From assembly GCF_002994045.1 (NCBI RefSeq), contig NZ_MQUC01000003.1, positions 186,001 through 250,000 on the forward strand: 64,000 nt of DNA, read 5' to 3'. A program made the translations under genes and the position numbers. A model generated the notes under the pieces. That model worked only from the letters and a program-made list of their open reading frames with translations, ran no database searches and had not been told where the DNA came from. Below are positions 1,926-19,303 of the stretch, in pieces. Source of the DNA: Nonlabens agnitus. Lineage in GTDB: Bacteria > Bacteroidota > Bacteroidia > Flavobacteriales > Flavobacteriaceae. The stretch's first letter is position 1. Every line of letters starts with the position of its first letter.

Positions 1926-4709
1926 TTGAAGGTATTTCTATTTATTGCTAGCTTTTTCTTTAGTTTTCTCTTGGTGCAGGCGCAAGAGTTGCCACCGGTG
2001 CGCAACTTTTCACCAGCAACCTACGGCGCCGAAAATCAAAATTGGAAGATCGCACAGTCTGAGGACCGAAATTTGTTTTTCGCGAACAATCAAGGACTGT
2101 TAGAGTACAATGGAGAACATTGGTATCTATATCCTACACCTAACGAGAGCATTATGCGGTCTGTTGAGTGGCATGAAGATCGTGTCTATACAGGATCTTA
2201 CATGGATTTTGGTTACTGGGAGCGACAAAACGATGGGACACTGACTTATACATCCATGGTTGATTCCCTCAACGTTTCCATCTTGGAAGATGAGCAATTC
2301 TGGGACATCATTTCTAGTGAATCTATCGTTTTGATACAGTCCTTAAGTCGTATTTATGCCTATAATCCAGAAGATAAAACGGTTCAAACTGTCGTAGAAA
2401 AACAAGGACTCACCAAAATCTTCAAAGTTGGGAATGGGATCTACTTTCATGTAACTGGGCAAGGCCTTTATCAGATTGTTAGCGGTCAACCGCAGCTCAT
2501 CATTAAACAGGATTTGATAGATGGTAACGTCATAGGTATGCGAGATAGTGATCGAGGAATCAAGCTTGTTACTGCCGCAAATTCCCTTTATATATTTGAG
2601 AATGATTCTCTGGAACTTATCTCGACCAATCAATTTTTCAGGCCGGTCACGGTTTATTCCGCAGTGGCCATTGAAGGTGATGGTTTTGCTGTAGGAACCA
2701 TATCCAACGGTTTGTTAGTCATGGATGGTGCTGGTGTGGTGGACTATCAAATAAATCAATCCAATGGACTGTCAAACAATACCGTTTTATCTGTATTTGT
2801 AGACGCAGATGACAATTTATGGGCAGGTCTAGATAATGGTATTGATTATATCAACCTTACCTCAAGGTTCAAAACTTTCATAGATAGGGAAGGCAAGCTG
2901 GGAACTATTTATGACGCTATTTATCATAAAGAACATCTGTATCTGGGATCTAATCAAGGGTTGTATGTTAGACCACCCAATCAAAAAACGTTTGAATTTA
3001 TTGAAGGAACTAAAGGTCAGGTATGGAGTTTAAAGGAGATTGATGGAACCTTGTTCTGTGGTCACAACCTTGGAACCTTTATCATCGACGGAAAGATAGC
3101 CACCCAAATTGCTTTTGAGGAAGGCACGTGGGACGTACAACCACTAGAAGGAACTACAGACCTTATTCTTCAGGGAAATTATAGTGGTCTTTTTGTTTTA
3201 CAAAGAGAAAATAACACGTGGAGTCTCAGGAATAAACTGGAAGGATTTGACATAAGCTCTAAAGATCTGGTGATAGATGGTCAACAGATTTTTGTAGGAC
3301 ATGAGTACAAAGGATTGTATGAACTTGATGTAAGCGACGATTTCCGCACCGTTGAAAATTATAAACTTATAGATGCCGTAGGTACTGGAATTAATTCTGA
3401 TGTGATTCAATTAGGTGGTGACGTTCTGTATTCCACACCACGAGGTATTTATGTCAAGACCGAGACATCTGATAGTTTCAAAAAAAATGAGGTGCTATCA
3501 TCATTTATAGAATCCAATGGATATACTTCTGGTAAGATGATCAAAATCAATGAAGGTTCCTTCTGGATGTTTTCTGATCAATCATTGATTCAAATTAACA
3601 AAGAGCCCATCAACGACACGTTTGAAGCTAAGAATATCTTGATACCGCACTTTAAAAGATCTGAAACCAAAGGGTATGAAAGCCTGATTCAATTACCCAA
3701 CCAAAACTATCTCATCGCAACGTCTCAGGGTTATCTACTTTGGGATAATAAGGACACTGAAGAGGTCAAAGGAAAAGTAGTAATAGATAGAGTGCGGATA
3801 AGTAACAGGAATGGCTCTAGTAAACTATTGGATCTTGATCAAAACAATAGTATGGATCACAGAACTAATGCAGTTGAGTTCTTTTTTCATGTGACCGATT
3901 ATAACGTATTCGATAGCGTTAAGTATCAATATTTTTTAGATGGAGACAGTGACTCATGGTCCAATGTTTTTGAGAAAGGTTCCATTCTCTTTGAAAACCT
4001 TAGTCATGGAGACTATCAACTGAGATTAAGATCTGTCGTTAACGGTTCTCTTGCAGAGGATGAGGCTGTTTTTTCTTTTACAATTGAACCGCCGTTTTAT
4101 TTTTCTAGAACAGCAATCGTAATTTATGTGATCATAATATTAGGTATTCTGTTTCTAATGGGACGCATTTTTAGATGGTATTACAATAGAAAAAGAAATC
4201 TGGATCTAGAGAAGCAACGTCAGCAAATGGAGCTTAATTTGCTAAAAAGTCAAAAGGATATTGCAGACTTAAAAAACAAACAACTCAATTCTGATATTGA
4301 ATCCAGAAACAGAGATTTAGCCATTAAAACAATGGCTATGATTAGGAAGAACGAAACTCTTAATCAGTTGAGAGGTGAGTTAGATAACCTACCTACCACA
4401 CAAGAATCCAAATCATTAAAAAAGATGCTGGATAAGAGTTTAAACAGCAAACAAGATTGGGTTGCTTTTGAAGAAGCTTTCAATAATGCGGATAAAGACT
4501 TTTTCAAAAAGATAAAGGAGAAACATCCTAATTTGACGTCTGGTGATTTGCGCCTATGTGTTTATTTAAGACTCAATCTTTCTTCTAAAGAGATCGCTCC
4601 GCTTTTAAATATTTCTCCTCGTAGTGTAGAAATTAAGCGATATCGTTTGCGTAAAAAAATGGGATTATCTCGAGATGATAGTCTTACTGGATACATTGTT
4701 GAGATTTAA
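1926..4709 (+). CDS. Membrane-spanning propeller/Y_Y_Y sensor with LuxR-type DNA-binding domain
   Basis: A 927-residue one-component regulator. A signal peptide (KVFLFIASFFFSFLLVQAQ) is followed by about 600 residues of propeller-like repeats (for example DADDNLWAGLDNGIDYI), then a Y_Y_Y-like beta domain. One transmembrane helix lies near residues 729-750, then a coiled coil, then a LuxR-type helix-turn-helix at about 870-927 (LSSKEIAPLLNISPRSVEIK). The start is TTG; no ATG fits. By topology the sensor lies in the periplasm and the DNA-binding part in the cytoplasm, with no kinase or receiver. Its position directly before the laminarin genes makes it the probable regulator of that locus. The ligand, presumably a laminari-oligosaccharide, is inference. 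Confidence 0.85.
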   Translation: MKVFLFIASFFFSFLLVQAQELPPVRNFSPATYGAENQNWKIAQSEDRNLFFANNQGLLEYNGEHWYLYPTPNESIMRSVEWHEDRVYTGSYMDFGYWERQNDGTLTYTSMVDSLNVSILEDEQFWDIISSESIVLIQSLSRIYAYNPEDKTVQTVVEKQGLTKIFKVGNGIYFHVTGQGLYQIVSGQPQLIIKQDLIDGNVIGMRDSDRGIKLVTAANSLYIFENDSLELISTNQFFRPVTVYSAVAIEGDGFAVGTISNGLLVMDGAGVVDYQINQSNGLSNNTVLSVFVDADDNLWAGLDNGIDYINLTSRFKTFIDREGKLGTIYDAIYHKEHLYLGSNQGLYVRPPNQKTFEFIEGTKGQVWSLKEIDGTLFCGHNLGTFIIDGKIATQIAFEEGTWDVQPLEGTTDLILQGNYSGLFVLQRENNTWSLRNKLEGFDISSKDLVIDGQQIFVGHEYKGLYELDVSDDFRTVENYKLIDAVGTGINSDVIQLGGDVLYSTPRGIYVKTETSDSFKKNEVLSSFIESNGYTSGKMIKINEGSFWMFSDQSLIQINKEPINDTFEAKNILIPHFKRSETKGYESLIQLPNQNYLIATSQGYLLWDNKDTEEVKGKVVIDRVRISNRNGSSKLLDLDQNNSMDHRTNAVEFFFHVTDYNVFDSVKYQYFLDGDSDSWSNVFEKGSILFENLSHGDYQLRLRSVVNGSLAEDEAVFSFTIEPPFYFSRTAIVIYVIIILGILFLMGRIFRWYYNRKRNLDLEKQRQQMELNLLKSQKDIADLKNKQLNSDIESRNRDLAIKTMAMIRKNETLNQLRGELDNLPTTQESKSLKKMLDKSLNSKQDWVAFEEAFNNADKDFFKKIKEKHPNLTSGDLRLCVYLRLNLSSKEIAPLLNISPRSVEIKRYRLRKKMGLSRDDSLTGYIVEI

Positions 4710-4999: not shown

Positions 5000-7900
5000 A
5001 TGAAAAAGTTCTTTTTAAGCATTTTATTGATTTTTTCAATATCCCTGAGTTTTTCTCAGGTTCAGAAAGTATCAGTGATGGACGATGTTAACGGTCAGAC
5101 ATTGATTGTTGACGGCAAACCATTCATCATTAATGGTATGAACTGGGATTACGTACCTATAGGTAAGAACTACTCCTATAATTTCTGGGCACAGTCGGAT
5201 GACTTTATAAAGGCAGCCTTAGATAGCGAGATGGGATTGCTAAAAAACATGGGCGTGAATACAATACGTGTCTATGTAGGTATTCAACCTAAATGGGTGC
5301 AGTTCATATATGAGAATTATGGAATATATACCATGATCAATCATTCCTTTGGGCGATATGGATTGACCATCAATGGCACTTGGTTCCCAAATACAGAGTA
5401 TGCTGATCCAGCCACTCAAGAGCTGCTACTTAGGGAAACGAAAGCTATGGTTGAGGAGTTTAAGGACACGCCTGGATTGTTAATGTTTATGCTAGGAAAT
5501 GAAAACAACTATGGACTTTCTTGGGGTGGAGCAGAGACCGAAGATATTCCTATAGAGACAGAAGGTACAGTTATCACAAGAGCTAGAGCAATGTATAAAT
5601 TGTTTAATGAGGCTGTTGTTGAGATGAAAAAACTTGATACAAAGCATCCAGTGGCAATCTGTAATGGAGACCTTTTATACTTGGATCTAGTAGCTGAATA
5701 CTGTACAGATATTGATATTTATGCAACCAACATGTATCGTGGTGTTTCTTTTAGTGACGCTTTTGAAAGGGTGAAAAATGAATTAGGTAAACCCATCATG
5801 TTTTCAGAGTTTGGTGCAGATGCCTTTAACGCATTGGACAACCGTGAAGATCAAAAAATGCAGGCGTACTATATGCTGAATAATTGGAAGGAGATTTACG
5901 AGAACGTTGCTGGATTAGGAAAAGCTGAAAACTCCTTAGGAGGATTCACTTTTCAATTTAGTGACGGTTGGTGGAAACGTGGACAAACCAAAGATCTCGA
6001 CATTCATAATACAGAAGCAAGTTGGTTGAGTGGTGGTTATACCTTAGATACCGATGGTACTACCAAAAACATGAATGAAGAATGGTTTGGGATTTGTGCC
6101 AAAGGATTTTCAAATGAACGAGGTCTTTATGATTTGTATCCGCGAGCGGCCTACTACACCTTAAAAGAAGTTCATCAACTTAACCCATATGCTAGCAATA
6201 TGACTTTAGAAAGTATGAAGAATTACTTTGACAGCATTAGTCTGATGGATGCGGTGCTACGTGGTCGTGGTGATGCAGCTGCTTTGGGTGGCGGCGGTAG
6301 TGGGCCAAAATTAGCAATCAGTAACCTTAGTGCCAGATTTACCACTTTTACTACTGGTGGATCCTTGATCACCACTCCAGAGACAGCAGATCCAGATTCC
6401 AACGCCTTTCCAGACGAATTGGGCTTTGATCACATGCAATCTTATTTTATAGGTATAGAAGGAAAGCCAGCTGCTAATATGCGTGCTAATGTCAACTTCA
6501 ACGTCATTGGCAAAGTGGCGCAAAATCCTATCAACGAAATATTTTACGAGAATAGAGCAAGACCTGTTGTCTCCTTGGATCAGAATAATCAGCGTGTTAT
6601 CATTGACGATGTGAATCGTGTGAATGTTTATGATGCAGAGTTTGAATGGAACGCTAAAGACTTTGATTTACGTGGTTTCTACAGGACCGGACATTATCAT
6701 TGGGGTTATGAAGGTGACTTCTTCGGGTTGTATCCAGAAGCAAATTATGGACCTAACTTAGATATTTACGGCGGTGAAATTTTAGGAGCTGAAATCGATG
6801 GTAAAGGAGTATTAGATGGCGCAAAAGCAGCTTTTGGTCCGCAACTTTGGTGGGGTGCCAACCCAACCGCTCTCTTCAAGTACCGTAGAAACATAGCTGG
6901 AGTAGATGTTACTGGAATCTACCATCGAGATGTTGAAACTGAAATAATTTTAGGAGATGATGGTCGTAGGGAATTAAATCCAAATCAATTACGTAGTGGT
7001 ATCATTCCTCCATTCCCTACAGAAAGAGCTACCATCGTTTTAGAAAAGGAGATTGGTAAATTTGGATTTACTTTAGGTGGTATTTGGGCTGGAAGTCCTC
7101 TTAATGGAACTACCTATCAAGATGTTGCAGGTAGTCCTGGAAACTATACTGTTTTTCAAGATAGAGTCAAGTCAAGCGACAATTGGGGTGGAAAAGCCAA
7201 AATCACATACCAAGGCGGTAAAATCAATTGGTATGCACAAGGTGGTATCAATGGTTTGGTAGCTCAAGGTGGTGCAGATCAAACCCAAACATTTACTGGT
7301 TGGAGGCTGAGAGATATCGGTAGTGGTAATATGTCTAATTTTCTAACTGGATTTACTTATTCTTTAGGTGATTGGCAAATAGCACCCAATTTCTTATACC
7401 AAAAACCATTAGTGGAGGCGATTCCTAGTGATGCTGGAGCACCCGCAAGGTTGAGAAATGTTATTGATGATCCATTTGCCGTAAGAGCTAACCGGGAAAC
7501 TACCGCTGGAGAATTGTTGCTGACGTTCGACCCGACTCCCGGTACATGGTTTTATGAATGGGACAATGATAGATCTGAAGACGCTCCGCTTGCATTTAGT
7601 GCCGGATTTGTTTTCTGGCATTTACCAACGAAGCAGGATGCCCACATTGGTTTTAATGCCAATAGAGAATTTTTTCCTTTCCCAGATTCAGTTCCTGCTG
7701 AAGACTTATGGGAAGCAAATAGTAGAATTGTTTCTAAGATTTCGCCAGAATTGGCATTAATTGGTAACCTATACTACGGTAAGTCCCAACCTAATGGAGA
7801 TAGTGAAAGACTAATCTATCGATATGGTGGTGATGTAAGATTGGTGTACAATAAAATGAAATTGGTTTCAGAAGTTAAGTTTAATGATTGGGGTCCTTAT

Positions 7901-8167
7901 GATTATCACAGAGACTTCAACCTAACATTCCCACTGCAATTGATGTTAGATCTTTCATATTCAATTGGTAAACCGGATTGGTTCATTTTACCAAGCACAG
8001 TAATGGGTATAAGAGGTACCTGGAGATCTTTGGATCAATTCTCACCTAGATACAGCCCCAATAATGCTGCCGAATTTGCCGACCAGCCAACCATCAGCCC
8101 TGTAGGATTCCCTAATGGATCCGAATGGGAAATAAGAACTTACGTTCATATCAATATTGGAAAATAA
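5000..8167 (+). CDS. Clan GH-A glycosidase fused to a predicted outer-membrane beta-barrel
   Basis: A 1055-residue protein with a signal peptide (residues 1-20, ending SFSQ). Residues 21 to about 415 look like a (beta/alpha)8 retaining glycosidase: GNENN with Glu168 as likely acid/base and FSEFGAD with Glu270 as likely nucleophile, plus FQFSDGWWKRG. A Gly-rich linker (about 425-434) leads to about 620 residues of alternating amphipathic strands rich in Tyr, Trp and Gly (DFDLRGFYRTGHYHWGYEGD and many similar), ending in a strand YVHINIGK. This looks like an outer-membrane beta-barrel. It is the first gene of the laminarin operon. A surface or inner-leaflet anchored beta-glucanase, possibly with pore function, is inferred. 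The catalytic family (GH2/GH5-like) is not settled. Confidence 0.75.
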   Translation: MKKFFLSILLIFSISLSFSQVQKVSVMDDVNGQTLIVDGKPFIINGMNWDYVPIGKNYSYNFWAQSDDFIKAALDSEMGLLKNMGVNTIRVYVGIQPKWVQFIYENYGIYTMINHSFGRYGLTINGTWFPNTEYADPATQELLLRETKAMVEEFKDTPGLLMFMLGNENNYGLSWGGAETEDIPIETEGTVITRARAMYKLFNEAVVEMKKLDTKHPVAICNGDLLYLDLVAEYCTDIDIYATNMYRGVSFSDAFERVKNELGKPIMFSEFGADAFNALDNREDQKMQAYYMLNNWKEIYENVAGLGKAENSLGGFTFQFSDGWWKRGQTKDLDIHNTEASWLSGGYTLDTDGTTKNMNEEWFGICAKGFSNERGLYDLYPRAAYYTLKEVHQLNPYASNMTLESMKNYFDSISLMDAVLRGRGDAAALGGGGSGPKLAISNLSARFTTFTTGGSLITTPETADPDSNAFPDELGFDHMQSYFIGIEGKPAANMRANVNFNVIGKVAQNPINEIFYENRARPVVSLDQNNQRVIIDDVNRVNVYDAEFEWNAKDFDLRGFYRTGHYHWGYEGDFFGLYPEANYGPNLDIYGGEILGAEIDGKGVLDGAKAAFGPQLWWGANPTALFKYRRNIAGVDVTGIYHRDVETEIILGDDGRRELNPNQLRSGIIPPFPTERATIVLEKEIGKFGFTLGGIWAGSPLNGTTYQDVAGSPGNYTVFQDRVKSSDNWGGKAKITYQGGKINWYAQGGINGLVAQGGADQTQTFTGWRLRDIGSGNMSNFLTGFTYSLGDWQIAPNFLYQKPLVEAIPSDAGAPARLRNVIDDPFAVRANRETTAGELLLTFDPTPGTWFYEWDNDRSEDAPLAFSAGFVFWHLPTKQDAHIGFNANREFFPFPDSVPAEDLWEANSRIVSKISPELALIGNLYYGKSQPNGDSERLIYRYGGDVRLVYNKMKLVSEVKFNDWGPYDYHRDFNLTFPLQLMLDLSYSIGKPDWFILPSTVMGIRGTWRSLDQFSPRYSPNNAAEFADQPTISPVGFPNGSEWEIRTYVHINIGK

Positions 8168-8174
8168 TATAGCA

Positions 8175-9626
8175 ATGATGAAAAAGAGATATAATATAAT
8201 TTGGAAAAGCCTAGCACTTCTGGGCGTGGCCGCAGCTGTTTTGATAGGTTGTGAACGTGAAATTTCAGACGATGCTGTAGAAGCGTTGTTCTCAGATAAT
8301 CCAGACGTTTTTATTGATAGCTTTAGCTCTGGACTTGAATATTTACCTTTTGGTGGTTCAAAGCAAGATGCTTTTACAGTCGATACTGAAACGGTCTTTG
8401 AAGGTTCTGCATCCATGCGATTTGATGTGCCTAACGTCGGTGATCCTGATGGTGCCTTTGCAGGTGCTATTTTTCCAGACTTGAATGGTGGAAGAAATCT
8501 AACTAAATATGACGCACTTACATTCTATGCCAAGGCTACAACGGCTGGTACCATAAATGAAATTGGTTTTGGTCAAGATTTTGGAGAGGCAAGATACTTA
8601 GTGACTCGCCTGAATCTTAGACTGACTACAAATTGGAGAAAATACGTTATCCCTATTCCAGACCCTTCTGTACTTACTCAAGAATCTGGATTGCTATGGT
8701 ATTCAGAAGGTCCAGAAGATGGTGACGGTTATACGTTCTGGCTTGATAATGTACAGTTTGAAAAATTAGGAACAGTAGCTCAACCTAGGCCGTCAATTTT
8801 GAATGGTCAAGATCTAGCACAACAATCTTTTATTAGTTCCTCATTGACAATTGACGGTTTGGGACAAACTTTCAATACAGCAAACGGACAAGATGTTACC
8901 GTGATTCCCGCACCTGCCTATTTCGATTTTAGATCTTCAGATCCTTCCGTAGCTGCTGTTGACGAACAAGGTCGGGTTACAGTCGTTAGTGCAGGAACAG
9001 CAATAATCACGGCCTCATTAAATGGGGTTGACGCTACTGGATCACTAAACATAGAGTCTGTAGGAGCATTTCCACATGCTCCCGTACCTACCAGGCCTGC
9101 CTCAAACGTCACTTCATTATTTAGCGACGCTTACGAAAACGTACCAGTGAGACACTATAATGGTTTTTTTGCACCCTTTCAAACCACACAAGGCGGCGCC
9201 GGATCTGACCCAAATAATGTTGATATACAGGCTCCTTTTGCAGATGGCTCCTTAGACAATATTATCAATTATACGCAATTAAACTTTGTGAGTATAGGAA
9301 TGTATGAAACGGTTCCTAATGTAGATGTCAGCTCACGAACCACTTTTCATGTAGATATTAACGTGAGAGAAACAGTTAATAATGGGGACTTTATTCGAAT
9401 AGAATTGGAAACTGGAACAGGAAGCGGCCAGGTATCTGGTAGCTCTTTTACCATTTCAGCTGCGATGTTAAGAAACGTTGATGATGACGGTTGGGCTAGT
9501 ATTGATATACCGCTATCAAGTTTTAGCGGGTTTAATAATCGATCTAGGTTAGGGCAGGTTTTCTTTATTTCTGACAATACAATATCAAATATCTGGGTAG
9601 ATAATGTCTATTTCTATAATCAGTAA
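8175..9626 (+). CDS. Glycan-binding lipoprotein with Ig-like domain
   Basis: A 483-residue lipoprotein; lipobox VLIGC, cysteine near residue 26. Domains in order: a beta-sandwich carbohydrate-binding-like module (about 35-200, ending WLDNVQFEKL), a bacterial Ig-like BIG2-type domain (SSDPSVAAVDEQGRVTVVSA), and a second beta-sandwich (about 305-483, starting APVPTRPASNVTSLFSDAYE and ending VDNVYFYNQ). The last module is clearly related to one in the protein encoded at 20492-21759. There is no catalytic motif. It starts eight bases after the barrel-fused glycosidase, so it probably serves as the surface glycan-binding protein of this locus. ATG at 8175 was preferred to an upstream one because it fits the signal peptide and avoids overlap. 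Confidence 0.8.
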   Translation: MMKKRYNIIWKSLALLGVAAAVLIGCEREISDDAVEALFSDNPDVFIDSFSSGLEYLPFGGSKQDAFTVDTETVFEGSASMRFDVPNVGDPDGAFAGAIFPDLNGGRNLTKYDALTFYAKATTAGTINEIGFGQDFGEARYLVTRLNLRLTTNWRKYVIPIPDPSVLTQESGLLWYSEGPEDGDGYTFWLDNVQFEKLGTVAQPRPSILNGQDLAQQSFISSSLTIDGLGQTFNTANGQDVTVIPAPAYFDFRSSDPSVAAVDEQGRVTVVSAGTAIITASLNGVDATGSLNIESVGAFPHAPVPTRPASNVTSLFSDAYENVPVRHYNGFFAPFQTTQGGAGSDPNNVDIQAPFADGSLDNIINYTQLNFVSIGMYETVPNVDVSSRTTFHVDINVRETVNNGDFIRIELETGTGSGQVSGSSFTISAAMLRNVDDDGWASIDIPLSSFSGFNNRSRLGQVFFISDNTISNIWVDNVYFYNQ

Positions 9627-9657
9627 AATCAAATTTGATAACCTTAAAATAAGAAAT

Positions 9658-10503
9658 ATGAATACGCCATTTATAAAGCAGTTAAAATTAAAACTTAACA
9701 GTATAGTTCCGATCTTTTTGATTTGCACAATTGTAAGCTGTGAGAATGATGAAAAGCAGACGGTGACCACTTTGAATAAATTAGTCCTTGCAGAGGAGTT
9801 TGATGTGGACGGTGCTCCAGATCCTAACTTATGGAGTTACGATCTAGGCGATGGTACGGCACGTGGACTGGTAGGTTGGGGAAACAATGAACTCCAATTT
9901 TATACCGACCGACCAGAAAACATTGTGGTGGAAGATGGTATGTTAAAGATCACTGCGATCAGAGAAAACTTTCAAGGATCCCAATACACGTCAGCTAGAA
10001 TTCTGACTGAAAATAAATTCCAAAAGAAATATGGTCGCTTTGAAGCGAGAATGAAGCTGCCCTACAGCCAGGGAATCTGGCCGGCATTCTGGATGCTGGG
10101 CGATGATCAGAATGGTACACTGGTCTGGCCACAATTGGGCGAGATCGACATTATGGAGTATCGCGGTCAGAATCCTACTGAAGTTTTGGGAAGCGTTCAC
10201 GGACCAGGATATTCTGGTGGCAATGCGCAATCAAAATCCTACATGCTTACCAATGATAGGTTTGATACAGATTTCCACATTTTTGGAATAGAATGGGGAC
10301 CTAACTACATCAACTATTATGTGGATGATGTGCTTTACAATCAAATCACTCCAGACGATGTCGATGGCGAGTGGGTTTTCAACAACAATGAATTTTATAT
10401 GTTGATCAACCTTGCTGTAGGCGGCTCCTTTGTAGGCGCACCCAATGAAAACACCGTGCTTCCGCAAACTCTATTTGTGGATTATGTGAGGGTTTACGAG
10501 TAA
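9658..10503 (+). CDS. GH16 endo-beta-1,3-glucanase (laminarinase), lipoprotein
   Basis: A 281-residue lipoprotein (lipobox TIVSC, Cys28). The GH16 signature ExDxxE is present as GEIDIMEY, with Glu162 as nucleophile, Asp164 and Glu167 as acid/base. The aromatic stretch GIWPAFWMLGD is typical of the laminarinase subgroup. The reaction expected is endo-hydrolysis of beta-1,3-glucan with retention, at the cell surface or in the periplasm. Start ATG 9658 is used because the longer frame would overlap the previous gene and spoil the signal peptide. It follows the binding lipoprotein by 31 bases, in the same operon. Confidence 0.93.
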   Translation: MNTPFIKQLKLKLNSIVPIFLICTIVSCENDEKQTVTTLNKLVLAEEFDVDGAPDPNLWSYDLGDGTARGLVGWGNNELQFYTDRPENIVVEDGMLKITAIRENFQGSQYTSARILTENKFQKKYGRFEARMKLPYSQGIWPAFWMLGDDQNGTLVWPQLGEIDIMEYRGQNPTEVLGSVHGPGYSGGNAQSKSYMLTNDRFDTDFHIFGIEWGPNYINYYVDDVLYNQITPDDVDGEWVFNNNEFYMLINLAVGGSFVGAPNENTVLPQTLFVDYVRVYE

Positions 10504-10536: not shown

Positions 10537-10556
10537 TACGCTTTCGCGAAAGCGTA
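10537..10556. repeat. Palindrome copy 2 (intergenic, TACG variant)
   Basis: Perfect 20-base palindrome whose outer bases are TACG/CGTA instead of TTCG/CGAA; both arms changed together, so symmetry is kept. It lies 34 bases after the GH16 stop. Confidence 0.95.
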
Positions 10557-10626: not shown

Positions 10627-13600
10627 ATGACCGAAAACAAAACCTATCTAGGAGAACAAAAAGCCACTTTCCCAAATCACGGAGTGAAGGGAGAACTGGT
10701 AGATTTCCAAGGCGAAACCTATTATAAGATAAGTAACCACGACGCGATGCGCCCATTTTTCATGAGCATCGTTAGCGATTCCAACCACTGGATGTTCATC
10801 TCCAGTAATGGTGGGCTTACTGCAGGTCGCAAGAATAGTGACTCAGCATTGTTTCCCTATTATACGGACGATAAGATTACAGAGTCCTTTGATATTACGG
10901 GAAGCAAAACCATCATAAGAGTGCATACCAGCGATCGCGACCAGCTTTGGGAGCCGTTCTCCAATAGGTACACGGGTATTTATGCCATCACACGAAATCT
11001 TTATAAAAATGTTTACGGGAACAAACTCATTTTTGAAGAGATCAATGAAGACTTACAATTAACCTATCGATATCACTGGAACTCAAGTGATCAATATGGC
11101 TTTGTCAAGAGATCGCAATTGATCAACAGTGGCGATCAAAAAGTGAATCTAACCGTACTAGATGGATTGCAGAATATACTGCCGGCGACCGTTGGTGAAG
11201 ACCTTCAAAAAGCATCCAGTAACTTAGTTGATGCCTACAAAAGAACAGAATTAAAGGAAGACACTGGAATAGGCATTATTGCGTTAAGTGCTGTAATCGT
11301 CGATAAGGCAGAGCCTAGCGAGGCACTCAAAGCAAATATTGCCTGGTCACTAGGTCTTGAAAATCCTACCTACCTCATTTCAACATTGCAATTGGATCCA
11401 TTCAGAAAGGGCCACCAAGTAACTCCAGAAACAGATGTGAAGGCAGAAAAAGGCGCCTATTTCACGGTTTCAGAAATGACCATCGCGGCAGGAGACAAAA
11501 AGGAATGGTATTACCTAGCTGATGTCAATCAGAACATCGTTACCATCAACGAAATTTCTGCACAGATCAAAGATGATAAAGACTTGATTCAAAAGATCAA
11601 CGATGATATCGAATTGGGATCCCAAAAATTAAATGCGCTGGTAGCAGCATCTGATGGATTGCAATGCACCGCAGATCCTTTGACTAACAATCGTCACTTT
11701 TCAAATACCATGTTCAACATCATGCGTGGTGGTATTTTTGACGACAACTACACTGTTGAAAAGGAAGATTTTTTAGAGTACCTGCAAGCAGCCAATGCTC
11801 AGGTTTTCAAAGAAGCGCAGCCATGGTTGGAACACCTTTCATCAGATTTCAATCAGCAGGAGCTTATTGAGATTGCAAATGCTCACGATAATCCAGATTT
11901 CAAACGTCTGGCGATAGAATATCTGCCACTTAAATTTAGCCGTAGACATGGCGACCCTAGTCGTCCTTGGAATAAGTTCTCCATCAATACGCGCAGTGAG
12001 GTAGATGGTTCAAAAATTCTGGATTACGAGGGAAACTGGCGCGACATCTTTCAAAACTGGGAAGCCCTAGCACATTCCTATCCTGAATTTATTGAAGGAA
12101 TGATCCACAAGTTTCTAAACGCGACAACGCTCGATGGGTACAATCCTTACAGGGTCACTAAAGGCGGTTTTGACTGGGAAGTCATTGAAGAGGATGATCC
12201 ATGGAGTTATATAGGATATTGGGGTGACCACCAGATTATTTATTTGCTCAAATTCCTTGAGTTTATTAAATCCTATTATCCAGAGAAATTAGAAGGTTTC
12301 CTTAATGAAGATATTTTTGTTTATGCTAACGTTCCATATAAAATCAAGAGCTATGCAGATATCAAAAAGAATCCTAAGGATACCATAGACTTTGATTACG
12401 ACCTACAGGAAACCATAGAGGAACGACGCAACCACCTAGGCGCTGATGGCGCCTTGCTCAAGAATCAATCTGGTGAAATCTACCGTGTTAACTTATTGGA
12501 AAAACTATTGGTAACCACACTGGCCAAAGTTTCCAATTTCATCCCAGAAGGTGGTATCTGGTTGAACACACAGCGACCTGAATGGAATGATGCCAACAAT
12601 GCCCTAGTAGGAAATGGTGTTTCCATGGTGACTTTGTATTACTTAAGAAGATTCCTGAATTACTTCAAGGAATTCATCACAGATTCAGATTTTGAAGATT
12701 CTTCAATATCTGTTGAGTTGTATGAGTTTTTCAATGCGGTTCACAAGACCTTGAGTGATCATAAAGATGTCATTAGTGGTTCCATCGATGATCACCAGCG
12801 TCGTTTGATACTGGATGGTGTGGCACAACCGGCCAGTGATTATAGAACAAAAATTTACTGCCAGAATTTCTCTGGCGTGAAAAAAAGCGTCTCAAAACAG
12901 GACCTGTTGGATTTTGTCACTGTTTCCTTGGACTATCTAGATCATAGTATTGATGCCAACTTGCGTCAAGATGGTATGTATCACGCATACAACCTAATGA
13001 CCATTGAGGACAATGGCGACATCAGTATTTCCTATTTATCTGAAATGCTGGAAGGCCAAGTGGCTGTTTTAAGTTCTGGTTACCTTAACCCAACTCAGGC
13101 ATTATCGGTTATGGATGGCCTCAAGTCCAGCGCCCTTTTTAGAGAAGACCAATACAGTTACATTTTATATCCCAACAAGCAGTTGCCTGGTTTTGAGGAG
13201 AAGAATATCATTCCAAAAGATCATGTCCAACAGTCACAGCTACTGCAACAATTATTAAAGGATGGCAATCAAAAAGTGGTCGTACAAGACAATCATGGCG
13301 ATTACCATTTCAATGCTAATTTCAATAATGCCAATAGTTTAAAGGCTGCCTTGAAACAACTTCCACAATCTGTTTATGGTAGCTTGATTGAAAAGGAACA
13401 GCAGCAATTGGAAAAAACCTTTGAAGCAGTATTCAACCACAAAGCCTTTACAGGTAGATCAGGTACGTTCTTCGGTTATGAAGGTTTGGGTTCTATCTAT
13501 TGGCACATGGTTTCAAAACTATTATTGGCCGTTCAGGAGTGCTGTCTTGATGCTATCAGCAGCGGCGCGAGTGATGAAATTGTAGGTAATATGTTGGATC

Positions 13601-14088
13601 ACTATTACGAGATCCAGGCAGGAATAGGTTCACATAAGTCGCCTAAACTTTATGGTGCAGTACCTACAGACCCTTATTCTCACACACCTGCTACAAAGGG
13701 TGCGCAGCAACCAGGAATGACTGGTCAGGTGAAAGAAGATATCTTAAGCCGTTTTGGCGAACTGGGATTGGTTGTGAAAAACGGCATCTTGAATTTCAAG
13801 CCTAGTTTATTGCGCAAGCAGGAATTTTTGAAATCGGTGCATGATTTTGAATATGTAGATCTGCACAAGAATAAACAAACCATCCAGATCAATTCAGGAT
13901 CGCTGGCCTTCACCTATTGTCAGGTGCCCGTAGTGTACACTTTGAGCGATAAGAAACACGTCAAAGTTACCTTCAAGGATGGCAAAACAAAGCAGTTTGA
14001 AGACTTGAAGCTGGATCTTGCTACAAGCCATCAATTGTTCAAACGCACAGATGAGATCGACAACATAGAGGTATTTATTGATAAATAA
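10627..14088 (+). CDS. Cytoplasmic beta-1,3-oligoglucan phosphorylase-like protein (GH149/GH94-type)
   Basis: A 1153-residue protein without signal peptide. Its N-terminal part resembles the beta-sandwich of inverting glycan phosphorylases (SNDSALFPYYTDDKI region), followed by a large helical (alpha/alpha)6-like part. EWNDANN at 652-658 resembles the DWND catalytic motif of GH94. Another conserved-looking aromatic/acidic stretch is DDPWSYIGYWGDHQ near 525. The length (about 1100 residues) and its place among GH16, GH17, GH30 and GH3 genes fit GH149, the beta-1,3-oligoglucan phosphorylases. The expected reaction is phosphorolysis of laminari-oligosaccharides to glucose-1-phosphate in the cytoplasm. 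The family assignment is from memory of length, motif and context, so moderately sure; GH161 is an alternative. Confidence 0.7.
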   Translation: MTENKTYLGEQKATFPNHGVKGELVDFQGETYYKISNHDAMRPFFMSIVSDSNHWMFISSNGGLTAGRKNSDSALFPYYTDDKITESFDITGSKTIIRVHTSDRDQLWEPFSNRYTGIYAITRNLYKNVYGNKLIFEEINEDLQLTYRYHWNSSDQYGFVKRSQLINSGDQKVNLTVLDGLQNILPATVGEDLQKASSNLVDAYKRTELKEDTGIGIIALSAVIVDKAEPSEALKANIAWSLGLENPTYLISTLQLDPFRKGHQVTPETDVKAEKGAYFTVSEMTIAAGDKKEWYYLADVNQNIVTINEISAQIKDDKDLIQKINDDIELGSQKLNALVAASDGLQCTADPLTNNRHFSNTMFNIMRGGIFDDNYTVEKEDFLEYLQAANAQVFKEAQPWLEHLSSDFNQQELIEIANAHDNPDFKRLAIEYLPLKFSRRHGDPSRPWNKFSINTRSEVDGSKILDYEGNWRDIFQNWEALAHSYPEFIEGMIHKFLNATTLDGYNPYRVTKGGFDWEVIEEDDPWSYIGYWGDHQIIYLLKFLEFIKSYYPEKLEGFLNEDIFVYANVPYKIKSYADIKKNPKDTIDFDYDLQETIEERRNHLGADGALLKNQSGEIYRVNLLEKLLVTTLAKVSNFIPEGGIWLNTQRPEWNDANNALVGNGVSMVTLYYLRRFLNYFKEFITDSDFEDSSISVELYEFFNAVHKTLSDHKDVISGSIDDHQRRLILDGVAQPASDYRTKIYCQNFSGVKKSVSKQDLLDFVTVSLDYLDHSIDANLRQDGMYHAYNLMTIEDNGDISISYLSEMLEGQVAVLSSGYLNPTQALSVMDGLKSSALFREDQYSYILYPNKQLPGFEEKNIIPKDHVQQSQLLQQLLKDGNQKVVVQDNHGDYHFNANFNNANSLKAALKQLPQSVYGSLIEKEQQQLEKTFEAVFNHKAFTGRSGTFFGYEGLGSIYWHMVSKLLLAVQECCLDAISSGASDEIVGNMLDHYYEIQAGIGSHKSPKLYGAVPTDPYSHTPATKGAQQPGMTGQVKEDILSRFGELGLVVKNGILNFKPSLLRKQEFLKSVHDFEYVDLHKNKQTIQINSGSLAFTYCQVPVVYTLSDKKHVKVTFKDGKTKQFEDLKLDLATSHQLFKRTDEIDNIEVFIDK

Positions 14089-14156: not shown

Positions 14157-15440
14157 ATGAGAACAAGAATCACATCAATGATCGCAATGCTGTTGCTGCT
14201 CGCAATGGGTTGTAAGGATGTGGCTCCAAATCAAATACCAGTAACAGAAGAGAAGTCAATGACAGCAAGTGATATCCTATCAAATCCAGAATACCTAGCG
14301 ATTTCCTATGGTGGCTATCGCGATACCACGCGTACCATACAGCCTACCATACCGCAGCTCAAAGATGATTTGAAAATTCTATCTGCTATGGGCGTTAGAA
14401 TTTTACGCACCTACAATATGCAGTTGCCGCACGCCACAAATGTGGTTAAGGCCATCGCACAACTCAAGCAGGAACAACCTGGTTTTGAAATGTATGTGAT
14501 GTTGGGAGCATGGATTGATTGTAAGAACGCCTGGACGGATAAGGCACCTGACCATAATGTAGAGAGTGAGCTTAACGCTGCCGAAATTGATCGGGCTGTC
14601 GCGCTAGCTAAGGAATATCCTGAAATCATCAAGATCATTGCGGTAGGTAACGAGGCCATGGTCAAATGGGCTACCAGTTATTATGTACAGCCAGCGGTCA
14701 TCCTTAAATGGGTCAATCACTTGCAAAATCTCAAAGCCAAAGGAGAACTGCCTAAGGATCTATGGATCACCAGTTCAGATAATTTTGCCTCTTGGGGCGG
14801 CGGCGAGGACCTATATCATGTACCAGAACTAGAAGAGCTTATTAAGGCTGTGGATTATATTTCCATGCATACCTATCCCATGCACGATACTCATTACAAT
14901 CCTGTGTTTTGGGGAGTTTCTCCTAAAAACATGCTGTTGTCCAAAAAGCAAAAAGTTGAAAATGCAATGATCAGGTCGGTCAATTATGCCAAGGATCAAT
15001 ACAACAGTGTTCAAGCATACATGACATCGCTAGGCGTTAATAAGCCTATACATATAGGAGAAACAGGCTGGGCGACCTATGCCAACGATCTTTATGGTGA
15101 TGAAGGTTCCCACGCGGCAGATCAGTACAAGTCAGGTCGTTATTATCACTTGATGAGAGAATGGACCACATCAAACAATATTTCCTGTTTTTATTTTGAG
15201 GCCTTTGATGAACAATGGAAGGATGCTGGAAATCCTCAAGGGTCAGAGAATCATTTTGGTCTTTTCAATATCGATGGTGAGGCAAAATATGCGATGTGGA
15301 ATCTGGTGGATGAAGGAACGTTTGAAGGACTTACCAGAAATGGTCATGCGATTACCAAAAGTTTTGATGGTGACGAGAAAAAATTACTGGGCCACGTTAA
15401 ACTGCCGCCAGTGCGACTAAATTTTAAAGGCTATGAATAA
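14157..15440 (+). CDS. GH17 beta-1,3-glucanase-like lipoprotein
   Basis: A 427-residue lipoprotein (lipobox LAMGC, Cys19). GH17 landmarks: GVRILRTYN near 79, VGNEAM with Glu166 as acid/base, and GETGWA with Glu302 as nucleophile, plus FYFEAFDEQWK near the end of the barrel. GH17 enzymes cut beta-1,3-glucans with retention and some transglycosylate. The lipid anchor places it in the periplasm or on the outer membrane. It precedes the GH30 gene with an eight-base overlap, so the two are probably translated together. It is clearly diverged from the two cytoplasmic-type GH17 domains further downstream. Confidence 0.9.
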   Translation: MRTRITSMIAMLLLLAMGCKDVAPNQIPVTEEKSMTASDILSNPEYLAISYGGYRDTTRTIQPTIPQLKDDLKILSAMGVRILRTYNMQLPHATNVVKAIAQLKQEQPGFEMYVMLGAWIDCKNAWTDKAPDHNVESELNAAEIDRAVALAKEYPEIIKIIAVGNEAMVKWATSYYVQPAVILKWVNHLQNLKAKGELPKDLWITSSDNFASWGGGEDLYHVPELEELIKAVDYISMHTYPMHDTHYNPVFWGVSPKNMLLSKKQKVENAMIRSVNYAKDQYNSVQAYMTSLGVNKPIHIGETGWATYANDLYGDEGSHAADQYKSGRYYHLMREWTTSNNISCFYFEAFDEQWKDAGNPQGSENHFGLFNIDGEAKYAMWNLVDEGTFEGLTRNGHAITKSFDGDEKKLLGHVKLPPVRLNFKGYE

Positions 15441-16947
15441 ATGGATATACAGATCAAAAGGAATATGGTCAGCCATTTTTATAATGACATTGATGAGTTG
15501 TAAAGAAACCAAAGAATCAGATGCTGCCCTAAATGTGGAGATCTACGAGACCTCTGCAGCTGGAAATCAGCTTGCTAAAATAGAAGCGTCGCAGGATTCT
15601 AAGAGCGACCGCATCATAACTATTGACGACCAAAAAACCTATCAAACCATTACTGGATTTGGCGGCGCTTTTACTGAATCTTCGGCCTATTTACTCAATC
15701 GATTGAGTAAAAAAAATCGGGACACGATTATCGACGCCTACTTCTCTCGAGAAGGAGCCAATTACTCGCTAACGCGCACGCACATGAACAGTTGCGATTT
15801 CTCGTTGGATCAATATTCATACTCACCAGTAGAGGATGATATGGAATTGGAACACTTTACGATTGAGGAAGATCGTGACGATTTAATTCCCATGATCAAG
15901 GATGCCATGGCAGCCTCACAAGATGGTTTCAAAATATTTGCCTCACCATGGACCGCAGCGCCATGGATGAAAGACAACAACGCATGGGTAGGCGGCAGTT
16001 TATTGCCTAAATACTACGACACATGGGCTCTTTTCTTTTCAAAATACATCGATGCCTACGAGGCAGAAGGTATTCCCATCTGGGGATTTACGGTAGAGAA
16101 TGAACCACACGGCAACGGGAACAACTGGGAAAGCATGCATTTTACACCTAAGGAAATGACAGATTTTGTTCAGTTTCACTTGGGACCTAAACTTGAAGCC
16201 GATGGTTATGGTGATAAGATCATATTAGGATACGATCAGAATAGAGCTGGATTAAGAGAATGGGTAGATGTGATGTATGAAAATGAAGAAACTTCTAAAT
16301 ATTTTGACGGTACGGCGATCCACTGGTATGAAAGTACTTATGAAGTTTTTCCAGAAGAATTACAATATGCGCATAACAAGGCACCAGATAAGTATTTGAT
16401 TGAAACAGAAGGTTGTGTGGATTCTGAAATCCCGCACTGGAGAGATGACGCATGGTATTGGTCCAAGGAAGCCACGGATTGGGGTTGGGACTGGGCCAGT
16501 GAAGAGCAAAAATATTTGCATCCCAAATATGCGCCGGTTAACCGCTATGCGCGCGACATTATAGGTTGTCTCAACAACTGGGTAGATGGATGGGTAGACT
16601 GGAACATGGTGCTGGATAGGCAAGGTGGTCCCAACTGGTTTGAGAACTGGTGTGTAGCACCTGTTATTGTAGATCCAGATGCAGATGAGGTCTATTTCAC
16701 GCCTTTATATTACACGATGGCTCACTTCAGCAAATTTATCAGGCCAGGTGCGCAAATGATAGAGGTAGATAATCCAGATAAGGATCTCGTTGCTACGGCA
16801 GCCAAGAATCCTGACGGAAGCATTGCATTCGTCATTTTCAATGAAGGAATGGAGCAGAAGGATTATACATTACGCTTTCGCGAAAGCGAGATCAACATCA
16901 AGCTAGGCCCACAAAGCTTACAGACCGTAGTCCTACCAAACAACTAA
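15433..16947 (+). CDS. GH30 beta-glucosidase/beta-1,6-glucanase, lipoprotein
   Basis: A 504-residue lipoprotein (lipobox LMSC, Cys23). GH30 features: TGFGGAFTESSA near 74-85, FTVENEPHG with Glu224 as acid/base, LIETEGC with Glu326 as nucleophile, and a C-terminal beta domain. GH30 members in laminarin loci often remove beta-1,6 branches; that substrate is inferred from context. One palindrome copy lies inside the gene and encodes RFRES near residue 482, in the last beta-sandwich strand region. Start ATG 15433 overlaps the GH17 stop by eight bases. Confidence 0.9.
   Translation: MNKWIYRSKGIWSAIFIMTLMSCKETKESDAALNVEIYETSAAGNQLAKIEASQDSKSDRIITIDDQKTYQTITGFGGAFTESSAYLLNRLSKKNRDTIIDAYFSREGANYSLTRTHMNSCDFSLDQYSYSPVEDDMELEHFTIEEDRDDLIPMIKDAMAASQDGFKIFASPWTAAPWMKDNNAWVGGSLLPKYYDTWALFFSKYIDAYEAEGIPIWGFTVENEPHGNGNNWESMHFTPKEMTDFVQFHLGPKLEADGYGDKIILGYDQNRAGLREWVDVMYENEETSKYFDGTAIHWYESTYEVFPEELQYAHNKAPDKYLIETEGCVDSEIPHWRDDAWYWSKEATDWGWDWASEEQKYLHPKYAPVNRYARDIIGCLNNWVDGWVDWNMVLDRQGGPNWFENWCVAPVIVDPDADEVYFTPLYYTMAHFSKFIRPGAQMIEVDNPDKDLVATAAKNPDGSIAFVIFNEGMEQKDYTLRFRESEINIKLGPQSLQTVVLPNN
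16873..16888. repeat. Palindrome copy 4 (inside GH30 gene)
   Basis: 16-base core of the palindrome, read in frame as R-F-R-E-S near the C-terminus of the GH30 protein. Confidence 0.93.
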
Positions 16948-16963
16948 CTTAAACCATCACATT

Positions 16964-19303
16964 ATGTCCACTGCAAAAAACAAAGTTCATTTCGGTCAGA
17001 AGGTAGCCTTTGGTTTAGGGATGCTGGCCAATCAAATGTTTCCAGCTGCGCTGGGAATATTCATGGTAGTATTGGTTCAAAACTTGGGTTTCCCTACCTG
17101 GATGTGGGGAATCTTGTTCTTTTTACCACGCGTTTTTGATTCCATTACAGATCCCATTATGGGATTCATTTCTGATAATACAAGGTCAGTTTGGGGTAGA
17201 CGTAGGCAGTATGTTTTTATTGGTGCCATAGTAATGGGAATCTCCTTTTCCATGATGTGGCAGTTGTATGAAGTGGATAGCTTGAGTTATAATTTTACCT
17301 ATTTCCTGCTATGGTCGCTGGTCTTTTATTTGGGTTTAACGGTTTTTAGCGTGCCTTATGTGGCGATGGGTTATGAGATGAGCGATGATTTTCACGAGCG
17401 AACAGATATCATGGCTGTGGCTCAATGGATAGGGCAATGGGCTTGGGTGATTGCACCATGGTTTTGGGTGATCATGTACGATCCAGATTGGTTTGAAAAC
17501 GCCGCTGTCGCAACACGTACCATAGCTATATGGGTGGCTGTGATTTGTGCGATTTTGGCAATGATTCCAGCATTTTTTGTAGACAGTAAATCCACTAAAG
17601 ATGATGATAGCCTGGCGCCATTAACGCTTAAAACAGTTGGTGGTAGTTTAAAGGAAATTGTGGAGAATTTTAAAGAGGCCTTTAAAATTGACGACTTTAA
17701 AAGGTTGTGTTATGCTACATTTCTGATATTCAACGCTTTTAACACGGTAGCTGGTTTTTCATTCTTTATAGTCGTCTACTATTTGTTTGCAGGTGATGCC
17801 GCAGCTGCTGGAATATGGCCTACGCTTTTGGGCAGTATAGGTGCGTTGGTAACAACCTTCTTGGTAATTCCGATAGTGGCAAGAATGTCCAAAAAACTAG
17901 GTAAGAAGAAAGCCTTTTTAGTATCTCAGGGAATTTCAATTCTAGGCTACATCATGCTATGGTTCTTATTTGTGCCTGGAAAGCCTTATCTATTCTTGTT
18001 TGCACTACCATTTTTCTCTTTTGGTATAGGTAGTTTATTTACACTGATGATGTCCATGACTTCTGATGTTATTGATGTGGATGAGCTCAACACTGGAAAG
18101 CGTCGAGAAGGAGTTTTTGGTGCAATCTATTGGTGGATGGTGAAATTTGGATTTGCGATCGCAGGTTTATTAACTGGAGCCATAATGACTTTAGTAGGCT
18201 TCGTTCCTGATGCTGAAAATACAGAAGCATCCGTTACAGGAATTAGATTGTTCTATTCTGGTTTGCCTATTGCTGGAACATTAGGTGCCATGTGGATCAT
18301 GCGTAAATATGAATTAACTGAGCAGAAATCTCACGTCATTAGTGCAGAACTTGCCAAACGAAGAATGAGAAAAGCTATTAGACCTACATCATCCTTCTAT
18401 GCACTTAACAAGCTCAAATCATTAATCGCCATCAATAGCGAGGCAAATTATCCAACCGATGTGGAGTCTGAATTATCTGATGATGACTTGGCAGCTCGAT
18501 TTCATCAAACTTTAAATGCGGGAGTTCACGGTTTGTGTTTTAGTCCCTATCTGGAAGGACAGAATATAGGTGACCAACTCACAGGAACCCAAATTGATGG
18601 TAGGATGGAAGTTATCCAGCCTTATACAAAATGGGTGAGATCATTCTCGTGTACCGATGGTAATGAACTCATTCCGGTTTCTGCAAGATCCAAAGGAATC
18701 AAAAGTATCGCTGGAGCCTGGATCAGCAATGATAGAGATCGCAATGAACTGGAGATCGCTGGTTTGTTGAAACAAGCCAAAAGCGGTATGGTCGATATTG
18801 CTGTTGTAGGTAATGAGGTATTGTTAAGAGAAGACTTATCTGTAACTGAACTTATTGAATACATACGACGTGTCAAGGCAGAGTTGCCTAATTTAAAAGT
18901 TGGATACGTAGATGCTTATTATCAATTTGTTGAGAATCCAGAACTCATTGATGAAGTTGATGTCATACTGGCCAACTGTTATCCGTTCTGGGAAGGTTGT
19001 CACATCGACAAATCCACAGCTTATCTGGATGGGATGTATAGTGCGGTTTTGGAAGTTTCCCAAGGGAAACAAGTCATCGTTTCAGAAACAGGATGGCCTA
19101 ATCAAGGAAAGGAAAATCAAGACGCAGTCCCTTCTAAGGAAAATGCGATGAGATATTTTATCAACGTCAATAACTGGTCTTCACAAAAAGATGTTGAAAC
19201 CTTCTACTTTTCTTCCTTTGACGAATCATGGAAAGCGCGTCAAGAAGGAGAAGTAGGTGCACGTTGGGGAATTTGGGATAAAAACGAAAACTTAAAATAT
19301 TGA
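16964..19303 (+). CDS. MFS (GPH-type) sugar transporter fused to a GH17 domain
   Basis: A 779-residue fusion. Residues 1 to about 455 form a twelve-helix GPH/melibiose-type symporter (GKRREGVFGAIYWWMVKFGFA is typical of the family's late helices). After a basic linker (ELAKRRMRKAIRP), residues from about 475 form a GH17 domain with VGNEVLL (Glu618, acid/base) and VSETGWP (Glu708, nucleophile). Since both termini of such transporters normally face the cytoplasm, the hydrolase domain should be intracellular. This suggests import of laminari-oligosaccharides coupled to immediate cleavage. The GH17 part is a close paralogue of the stand-alone protein that starts one base after this gene's stop. 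Confidence 0.9.
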   Translation: MSTAKNKVHFGQKVAFGLGMLANQMFPAALGIFMVVLVQNLGFPTWMWGILFFLPRVFDSITDPIMGFISDNTRSVWGRRRQYVFIGAIVMGISFSMMWQLYEVDSLSYNFTYFLLWSLVFYLGLTVFSVPYVAMGYEMSDDFHERTDIMAVAQWIGQWAWVIAPWFWVIMYDPDWFENAAVATRTIAIWVAVICAILAMIPAFFVDSKSTKDDDSLAPLTLKTVGGSLKEIVENFKEAFKIDDFKRLCYATFLIFNAFNTVAGFSFFIVVYYLFAGDAAAAGIWPTLLGSIGALVTTFLVIPIVARMSKKLGKKKAFLVSQGISILGYIMLWFLFVPGKPYLFLFALPFFSFGIGSLFTLMMSMTSDVIDVDELNTGKRREGVFGAIYWWMVKFGFAIAGLLTGAIMTLVGFVPDAENTEASVTGIRLFYSGLPIAGTLGAMWIMRKYELTEQKSHVISAELAKRRMRKAIRPTSSFYALNKLKSLIAINSEANYPTDVESELSDDDLAARFHQTLNAGVHGLCFSPYLEGQNIGDQLTGTQIDGRMEVIQPYTKWVRSFSCTDGNELIPVSARSKGIKSIAGAWISNDRDRNELEIAGLLKQAKSGMVDIAVVGNEVLLREDLSVTELIEYIRRVKAELPNLKVGYVDAYYQFVENPELIDEVDVILANCYPFWEGCHIDKSTAYLDGMYSAVLEVSQGKQVIVSETGWPNQGKENQDAVPSKENAMRYFINVNNWSSQKDVETFYFSSFDESWKARQEGEVGARWGIWDKNENLKY

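Follow-up and report, generated by a model that had tools for sequence, protein, structure and literature searches.

The window analysed here is a stretch of 64,000 nucleotides from Nonlabens agnitus (contig NZ_MQUC01000003.1, positions 186,001 to 250,000), and the gene under study encodes a protein that joins a clan GH-A glycoside hydrolase (GH) domain to a predicted outer-membrane beta-barrel. The positions of this fusion gene, its parts and its neighbours are listed in Table 1. An initial annotation, made from the letters of the DNA, had described a signal peptide, a glycosidase with two catalytic glutamates, a Gly-rich linker and an outer-membrane barrel in a single chain, and this architecture was borne out. 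The N-terminus, MKKFFLSILLIFSISLSFSQ, is signal-peptide-like as judged by eye, the enzyme part matches PF02836, the C-terminal part is modelled with 26 strands, and the linker is present in the protein from the window, though its conservation is low (the majority fraction averages 0.54 over residues 396-437). The start codon of the next gene, an ATG, lies 7 bp past the stop codon of the fusion gene.

Table 1. Features of the window (position 1 is its first nucleotide)
Feature	Position	Strand	Basis
Regulator	1926..4709	+	Y_Y_Y above cut-off; LuxR-type helix-turn-helix and Reg_prop below cut-off
GH-A/outer-membrane-barrel fusion gene, 1055 aa, ATG start	5000..8167	+	Open reading frame, PF02836, AlphaFold2 models
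Predicted signal peptide, residues 1-20	5000..5059	+	Read by eye; model helix 2-18
Clan GH-A TIM-barrel domain and two C-terminal helices, residues 24-430	5069..6289	+	PF02836, model, nearest folds GH157/GH2/GH158
E168, putative acid/base, N167 just before	5501..5503	+	Invariant in 107/107; pairs with the glutamate of GNE in BuGH158
E270, putative nucleophile	5807..5809	+	Invariant in 107/107; pairs with the glutamate of TEWG in BuGH158
Gly-rich linker, residues 431-437	6290..6310	+	Sequence; low conservation
Predicted outer-membrane beta-barrel, 24-26 strands, residues 438-1053	6311..8158	+	Two models, structure searches
Aromatic/His-rich loop after strand 5, residues 563-593	6686..6778	+	Mean majority fraction 0.93
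Loop LWWGANP, residues 616-622	6845..6865	+	Mean majority fraction 0.99
Loop WGPYDYHRDFNLT, residues 964-976	7889..7927	+	Mean majority fraction 0.96
Big_2 lipoprotein, candidate surface glycan-binding partner	8175..9626	+	Big_2 match; lipobox by eye
GH16, lipoprotein-like; true start may lie further in	9604..10503	+	Open reading frame list, Pfam
GH149 beta-1,3-glucan phosphorylase, no signal peptide by eye	10627..14088	+	1815.8 bits against a cut-off of 1150
GH17	14157..15440	+	Pfam
GH30	15433..16947	+	Pfam
MFS_2 transporter fused to C-terminal GH17	16964..19303	+	Domain matches
GH17, no signal peptide by eye	19305..20213	+	
CBM4_9 protein with type IX secretion sorting tail, TTG start listed	20533..21759	+	
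GH3	22066..24384	+	
GCTTTCGCGAAAGC sites, examples	1023-1036, 10540-10553, 30292-30305		

Residues 31-280 match the GH2 TIM-barrel family PF02836 with 32.4 bits (cut-off 21). N167, E168 and E270 were unchanged in all 107 aligned sequences, and also in all 94 rows of a second alignment that includes the query and a copy from its own genome. Loss of the catalytic glutamates in close relatives, which the initial annotation had named as evidence against its proposal, did not appear. The two glutamates align with the catalytic pair of the endo-beta-1,3-glucanase BuGH158 (N136, E137 and E220; after strands 4 and 7). Profile similarity is remote, the best GH158 match having an E-value of 3.4e-5, yet a GH2 galactosidase is matched at 1.5e-4. 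By computation, the GH-A domain resembles endo-beta-1,3-glucanases and has conserved catalytic residues; the activity is predicted.

No Pfam or NCBIfam family matches the last approximately 615 residues above its cut-off. The full-length AlphaFold2 model has a predicted local distance difference test score (pLDDT) of 80.4 and a predicted TM-score (pTM) of 0.70, and a model of residues 425-1055 alone has values of 77.4 and 0.79, with some loops below pLDDT 50. The same 26 strands are found in both. Strands 12 and 13 are short, with only a tight turn between them, and may together form an outer-loop hairpin, so the number of strands in the membrane is 24 to 26. The initial annotation had expected 16 or more strands in a closed barrel, and more than 16 are modelled here, in a barrel that is presumably closed; the alternative that it had named as contradicting it, a soluble beta-sandwich or carbohydrate-binding tail, was not seen in the models. 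The mean gap is 20.5 residues after odd-numbered strands and 4.8 after even-numbered strands (Mann-Whitney p=0.0002, 25 gaps), which is the usual pattern of outer-membrane barrels, namely long outer loops and short periplasmic turns. The even number of antiparallel strands is likewise as in such barrels. Hydrophobicity alternates within strands more than in shuffled sequences (11 of 2000 shuffles reach the observed value). The barrel was folded and searched separately, since the structure search with the whole model was dominated by TIM barrels. All 50 Foldseek rows listed for the barrel model are outer-membrane proteins by title. The VIA-align search ranked AlgE (15.0), MOMP (14.7), Occ porins (14.4), FimD (13.6 and 13.1, spanning model residues 13 or 10 to 631) and chitoporin (13.4), and two of its 50 rows are not clearly membrane barrels by title, namely an artificial metalloprotein and a phage fibre complex with LamB. 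We give very little weight to a soluble beta-rich tail that the predictor closed into a barrel. The mean pLDDT of 77 for the barrel model, the poorly modelled loops and the low TM-scores to any single barrel are compatible with it, but the loop asymmetry, the strand alternation and the consistent matches to outer-membrane barrels are not what it predicts.

Membership of three known classes was considered and found no support. For SusC and other TonB-dependent transporters, neither a plug nor a SusC family was matched at E<=1 (Pfam and NCBIfam), for type V autotransporters no autotransporter domain was matched at E<=1 (Pfam), and usher membership is unsupported by Pfam and NCBIfam.

In the models, strand 1 of the barrel starts on the side of the short turns, which makes a periplasmic location of the GH domain quite likely. 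The exception would be a linker that runs back through the lumen in the manner of autotransporters, an arrangement that strand parity fits equally well. With a periplasmic GH domain, cleavage would take place at the exit of the pore and not at its entrance. The initial annotation had proposed that glucan is cut at a possible entry pore, and the beta-1,3-glucan context of that proposal is supported here, whereas the position of the enzyme is shifted to the exit.

Classical autotransporters have 12 strands. If the fusion protein were arranged in their manner, the barrel would be a membrane anchor that only holds or displays the glucanase on the outside, with the linker threaded through it, and SusC/SusD pairs elsewhere would import the glucan. 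We regard this as unlikely. In its favour, the helical linker (helices at residues 403-430) would give this strand parity too if it ran through the lumen, and other SusC/SusD pairs are present in the genome from which the window comes. However, the barrel has approximately 26 strands and, as above, no autotransporter match. Moreover, the three loops listed in Table 1, all predicted to be on the outer side, are more conserved than the GH domain, which averages 0.74, though other barrel loops fall as low as 0.46. Trp, Tyr, His and Asp abound in these three loops, which may serve as a path or a filter for glucan.

The fusion of enzyme and barrel is a conserved and widespread family and not a chance event. 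In a large protein set, 5523 of 8000 scored candidates matched at E<=1e-5, and a second search gave 5535 matches at E<=1e-10 among 7999. The gene, which is common in marine Bacteroidota, is thus not rare, with thousands of matches, and database annotation calls it GH2 or glycosidase. The best 120 matches of each search are all 991-1105 aa long and from Flavobacteriia, those of the second search also including records named Ignavibacteriae, Calditrichota, Zixibacteria and Marinimicrobia. With a 23-row barrel profile, the barrel was found in 35 of the 395 genomes searched from the phylum, in 32 cases within an intact frame of at least 1046 aa, and a single barrel sequence used as the query found it in 29 of 296 genomes. 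No barrel without the enzyme was seen in either search. The three barrel-containing genomes that lack an intact frame are G204, where a 1028-aa frame is missing the end of the barrel, which sits on another contig, G235 and G119. In G119 (L187) a stop comes after the enzyme part and the barrel is reduced to a short remnant, and in G235 (L188) the gene is interrupted and the second part of the barrel is missing. A search with the enzyme domain was positive in 26 of 148 genomes, 20 with frames of at least 1046 aa. It also recovered short frames of 449-480 aa (G119, G104 and G123) and remote relatives with 23-33 % identity (G077, G139 and G143). The barrel-less frames in some relatives rule out that the enzyme is always fused to a barrel.

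Family f21, to which G104 belongs, contains both forms, and the enzyme domain was found in 9 of its 11 genomes. Fused frames of 1051-1084 aa are present in G397, G398, G022 and G112, with the lipoprotein gene next in each case and no SusC in the 8.2, 7.3, 14.7 and 10.3 kb of upstream DNA examined, respectively. In G396, G104, G400, G123 and G395 the frames are barrel-less (447-496 aa) and end just past the helix that precedes the barrel. SusD, searched for with a query from L145, was found in four of these five loci and SusC also in three. The gene order is SusC, SusD, GH16, enzyme, GH149 in G104 and G395, and SusD (at the contig start), GH16, enzyme, GH149 in G396. In G123, SusC, SusD, GH16, GH149, GH17 and MFS genes are approximately 12 kb from the enzyme gene on the same contig, and in G400, where the contig ends approximately 1 kb upstream of the enzyme, only the enzyme and GH149 were found. 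The lipoprotein gene is absent beside the enzyme in all five barrel-less loci, the contig of G104 having one weak match elsewhere (31 % over 182 residues), and there is no barrel match anywhere in the G104 and G123 genomes. From these gene orders, barrel plus lipoprotein and SusC plus SusD trade places around a shared GH16-GH149 core. No other evidence for an uptake role is as strong as this swap, which comes from one family and draft contigs.

The barrel-less enzymes of G104, G123, G400 and G395 carry a lipobox-like signal, which is not visible in the printed part of the G396 sequence. Lipid anchor and barrel therefore look like alternative attachments, as expected if the barrel serves only as an anchor, but that explanation does not account for the joint change of SusC/SusD, partner lipoprotein and barrel in f21.

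Where related stretches reach far enough downstream, the gene that follows the fusion gene encodes the lipoprotein in 77 of 77 and 24 of 26 cases. In 42 of 62 related loci, a homologue of the regulator ends no more than 1.8 kb upstream of the fusion gene. Across 106 related stretches of various lengths, the lipoprotein was found in 103, GH16 in 100, GH149 in 90, GH17 in 77, GH30 in 63 and MFS in 46. SusC (score >100) was counted on stretches with 7 kb or more of upstream DNA, and 18 and 1 loci with less were dropped. It was present in 20 of 62 and 3 of 25 of these stretches, and was not detected in the remaining 64 of 87, on the DNA fetched. It is quite improbable that the barrel is a helper of SusC that keeps a periplasmic glucanase at the membrane, close to import of the SusC type. 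SusC is near the gene in 23 of the 87 stretches, but it was not detected in the other 64, and in f21 the loci in which it was found are all barrel-less. At the genome level, where up to 20 SusC candidates were scored per genome and PF07980 alone was used for SusD, SusC was above cut-off in 26 of 28 other carrier genomes. The weakest best E-values were those of G255, G066 and G051. No SusD PF07980 match was found in five of the 28 (G144, G066, G255, G051 and G204), which also argues against import by SusC/SusD elsewhere in the cell with the barrel as a mere anchor. The locus is reduced in G255 and G066 to the fusion gene, lipoprotein, ROK regulator, GH16, MFS and GH17.

In the window, the run of genes on the same strand reaches approximately 24.4 kb. 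With GH149, GH17, GH16 and GH30 clustered with an MFS transporter, this is a laminarin locus of the GH149 variant 1 type. The CBM4_9 protein near the end of the cluster is likely a secreted glucan-binding protein. Glucan export or trimming, as in alginate or Pel export where a periplasmic hydrolase stands beside an outer-membrane barrel, is very improbable, as the cluster genes tested gave no Pfam or NCBIfam match to a synthase, and a phosphorylase and an MFS sugar transporter make the cluster look degradative.

Separately, a 14-base palindrome, GCTTTCGCGAAAGC, occurs at 16 sites in the window and at none in 100 shuffles. There are 762 sites in the 3.2 Mb genome (approximately one per 4 kb), compared with none for a reversed control. 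Some sites lie inside genes and encode the peptide FAFAKA, which is part of a signal peptide in several cases, and others lie elsewhere. The palindrome recalls known motifs repeated throughout genomes, such as HIP1 of cyanobacteria.

Clusters of this type have been described, and the statements that follow are from excerpts of the papers cited. Laminarin is said to hold more than 10 % of the CO2 fixed each year (PMC11345257). GH149 clusters occur both with and without susCD (PMC5827456). Variant 1 laminarin polysaccharide utilization loci (PULs) have the order GH149-GH0-GH17-GH16_3-GH30_1, and one of them lacks susCD; in one Aurantivirga metagenome-assembled genome, GH0 and GH16_3 are in the top 10 % of expression (PMC10108472). 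By position and elimination, this GH0 is probably the fusion gene. A GH17-MFS fusion is reported in Formosa and other laminarin PULs (PMC10108472). In Muricauda, a cluster of the same type as in the window lists a GH2 beta-glycosidase (PMC13188888), and we infer that this is the fusion gene because L049, on the contig that this paper names for strain 176CP4-71, has the fusion gene, lipoprotein, GH16, GH3, GH17 and GH30 in a row. Colwellia has loci without susCD that include GH17, GH16_3 and GH149 (PMC10811738). Laminarin-induced PULs are known in Formosa (PMC6246565), with no locus tag in the excerpt tied to the fusion gene.

Taken together, the likeness of the GH-A domain to beta-1,3-glucanases, the occurrence of the barrel only joined to the enzyme, the location next to the lipoprotein gene at the start of a laminarin locus and the swap in f21 lead us to predict that the fusion protein is probably an outer-membrane uptake barrel for beta-1,3-glucan that brings its own endoglucanase and, with its partner lipoprotein, stands in for SusC/SusD. 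GH16 and the binding lipoproteins would capture and pre-cut laminarin at the surface, and the glucan chains would cross through the barrel, in which the conserved aromatic loops probably act as a lining or a gate. On the periplasmic side, the GH domain at the mouth of the barrel would cut the emerging chains, GH17, GH30 and GH3 would complete breakdown in the periplasm, the MFS transporter would carry out import, and GH149 would act by phosphorolysis in the cytoplasm. A more specific version, which we put forward tentatively and think rather doubtful, is a TonB-independent importer ratcheted by hydrolysis, in which beta-1,3-glucan would enter passively via a large pore and its partner lipoprotein, and cleavage of each segment at the periplasmic mouth by the attached enzyme would make entry irreversible.

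Several points weigh against uptake through the barrel. The CAZy family and the substrate of the enzyme are tentative, and its nearest folds in a structure search of the model were tied between GH157, GH2 and GH158. A closed barrel with an unplugged pore of sufficient size is presumed, and the side of the GH domain is predicted from strand parity in the models. The Foldseek TM-scores are low (0.17-0.37 by query length, rmsd, or root-mean-square deviation, 11-20 A), and the match is therefore to barrels in general. Laminarin chains have a degree of polymerization (DP) of 20-35 (PMC13188888), and may be too large for passive passage. SusC is also present in the 23 stretches counted above. The genome of N. 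agnitus has seven SusC above cut-off and six SusD matches, none of them in the window, and one pair stands beside GH30 and GH3 in a SusC-SusD-GH30-SusE-GH3-lectin-GH30 locus (L178:8263-20000; C4, approximately 794-806 kb), perhaps for another beta-glucan. In G119, the barrel is broken and the 2 kb seen upstream contain no SusC. Finally, G077 (L191) and G139 (L192) have remote stand-alone, lipoprotein-like enzymes (25-28 % identical) beside GH149, GH17 and MFS, with neither SusC nor a barrel on 16-17 kb.

GH149 laminarin clusters without susCD, in the excerpts cited, leave open how glucan passes the outer membrane (PMC5827456, PMC10108472). An enzyme-barrel that trades places with SusC/SusD is a testable answer and provides a marker gene. 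If the uptake role is correct, a single chain can combine catalysis with passage across the outer membrane. The ratcheted importer, if real, would be a polysaccharide route beside SusC/SusD and simple porins, evolutionarily interchangeable with SusC/SusD and spread over Bacteroidota and some neighbouring phyla.

Among known enzymes, the GH158 and GH157 endo-beta-1,3-glucanases (BuGH158, 6pal; LaGH157, 9g4n) share with the fusion protein the clan, the positions of the N-E pair and the second glutamate, and a beta-1,3-glucan locus. However, BuGH158 has an Ig-like domain at the C-terminus, where the fusion protein has helices and membrane barrel strands. GH2 enzymes are alike in that the TIM barrel of the fusion protein exceeds the PF02836 cut-off. 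N-terminal sandwich domains before the TIM barrel are typical of GH2, but are absent from the fusion protein, in which the TIM barrel starts at about residue 24 and no other Pfam domain is above cut-off. One GH2 example has two extra N-terminal domains (PMC7157763, excerpt).

Judged by titles and the start of abstracts, no glycoside hydrolase fused to an outer-membrane pore barrel was found in a literature set without closed-access papers, preprints and supplements. AlgE, MOMP, OprD/Occ, chitoporin and the PapC/FimD ushers are, like the fusion protein, large antiparallel outer-membrane barrels, with no sequence relation to it among the profile matches listed, and we know of none with a fused glycosidase. 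The variant 1/GH149 clusters have the same gene content as the locus in the window, which is of that type, but in the excerpts of the papers describing them the gene is labelled GH2 or GH0 and the barrel is not mentioned (PMC10108472, PMC5827456, PMC13188888). Compared with SusC/SusD laminarin PULs and the 1,3-glucan locus of B. uniformis, the window has no TonB plug that was found and no SusD beside the barrel, and the enzyme is fused to the barrel. Shared with them are the order of the barrel gene and then a lipoprotein gene, and the presence of GH16, GH3 and a sensor regulator, and the one-chain architecture of enzyme and barrel appears to be a variant of known uptake machinery.

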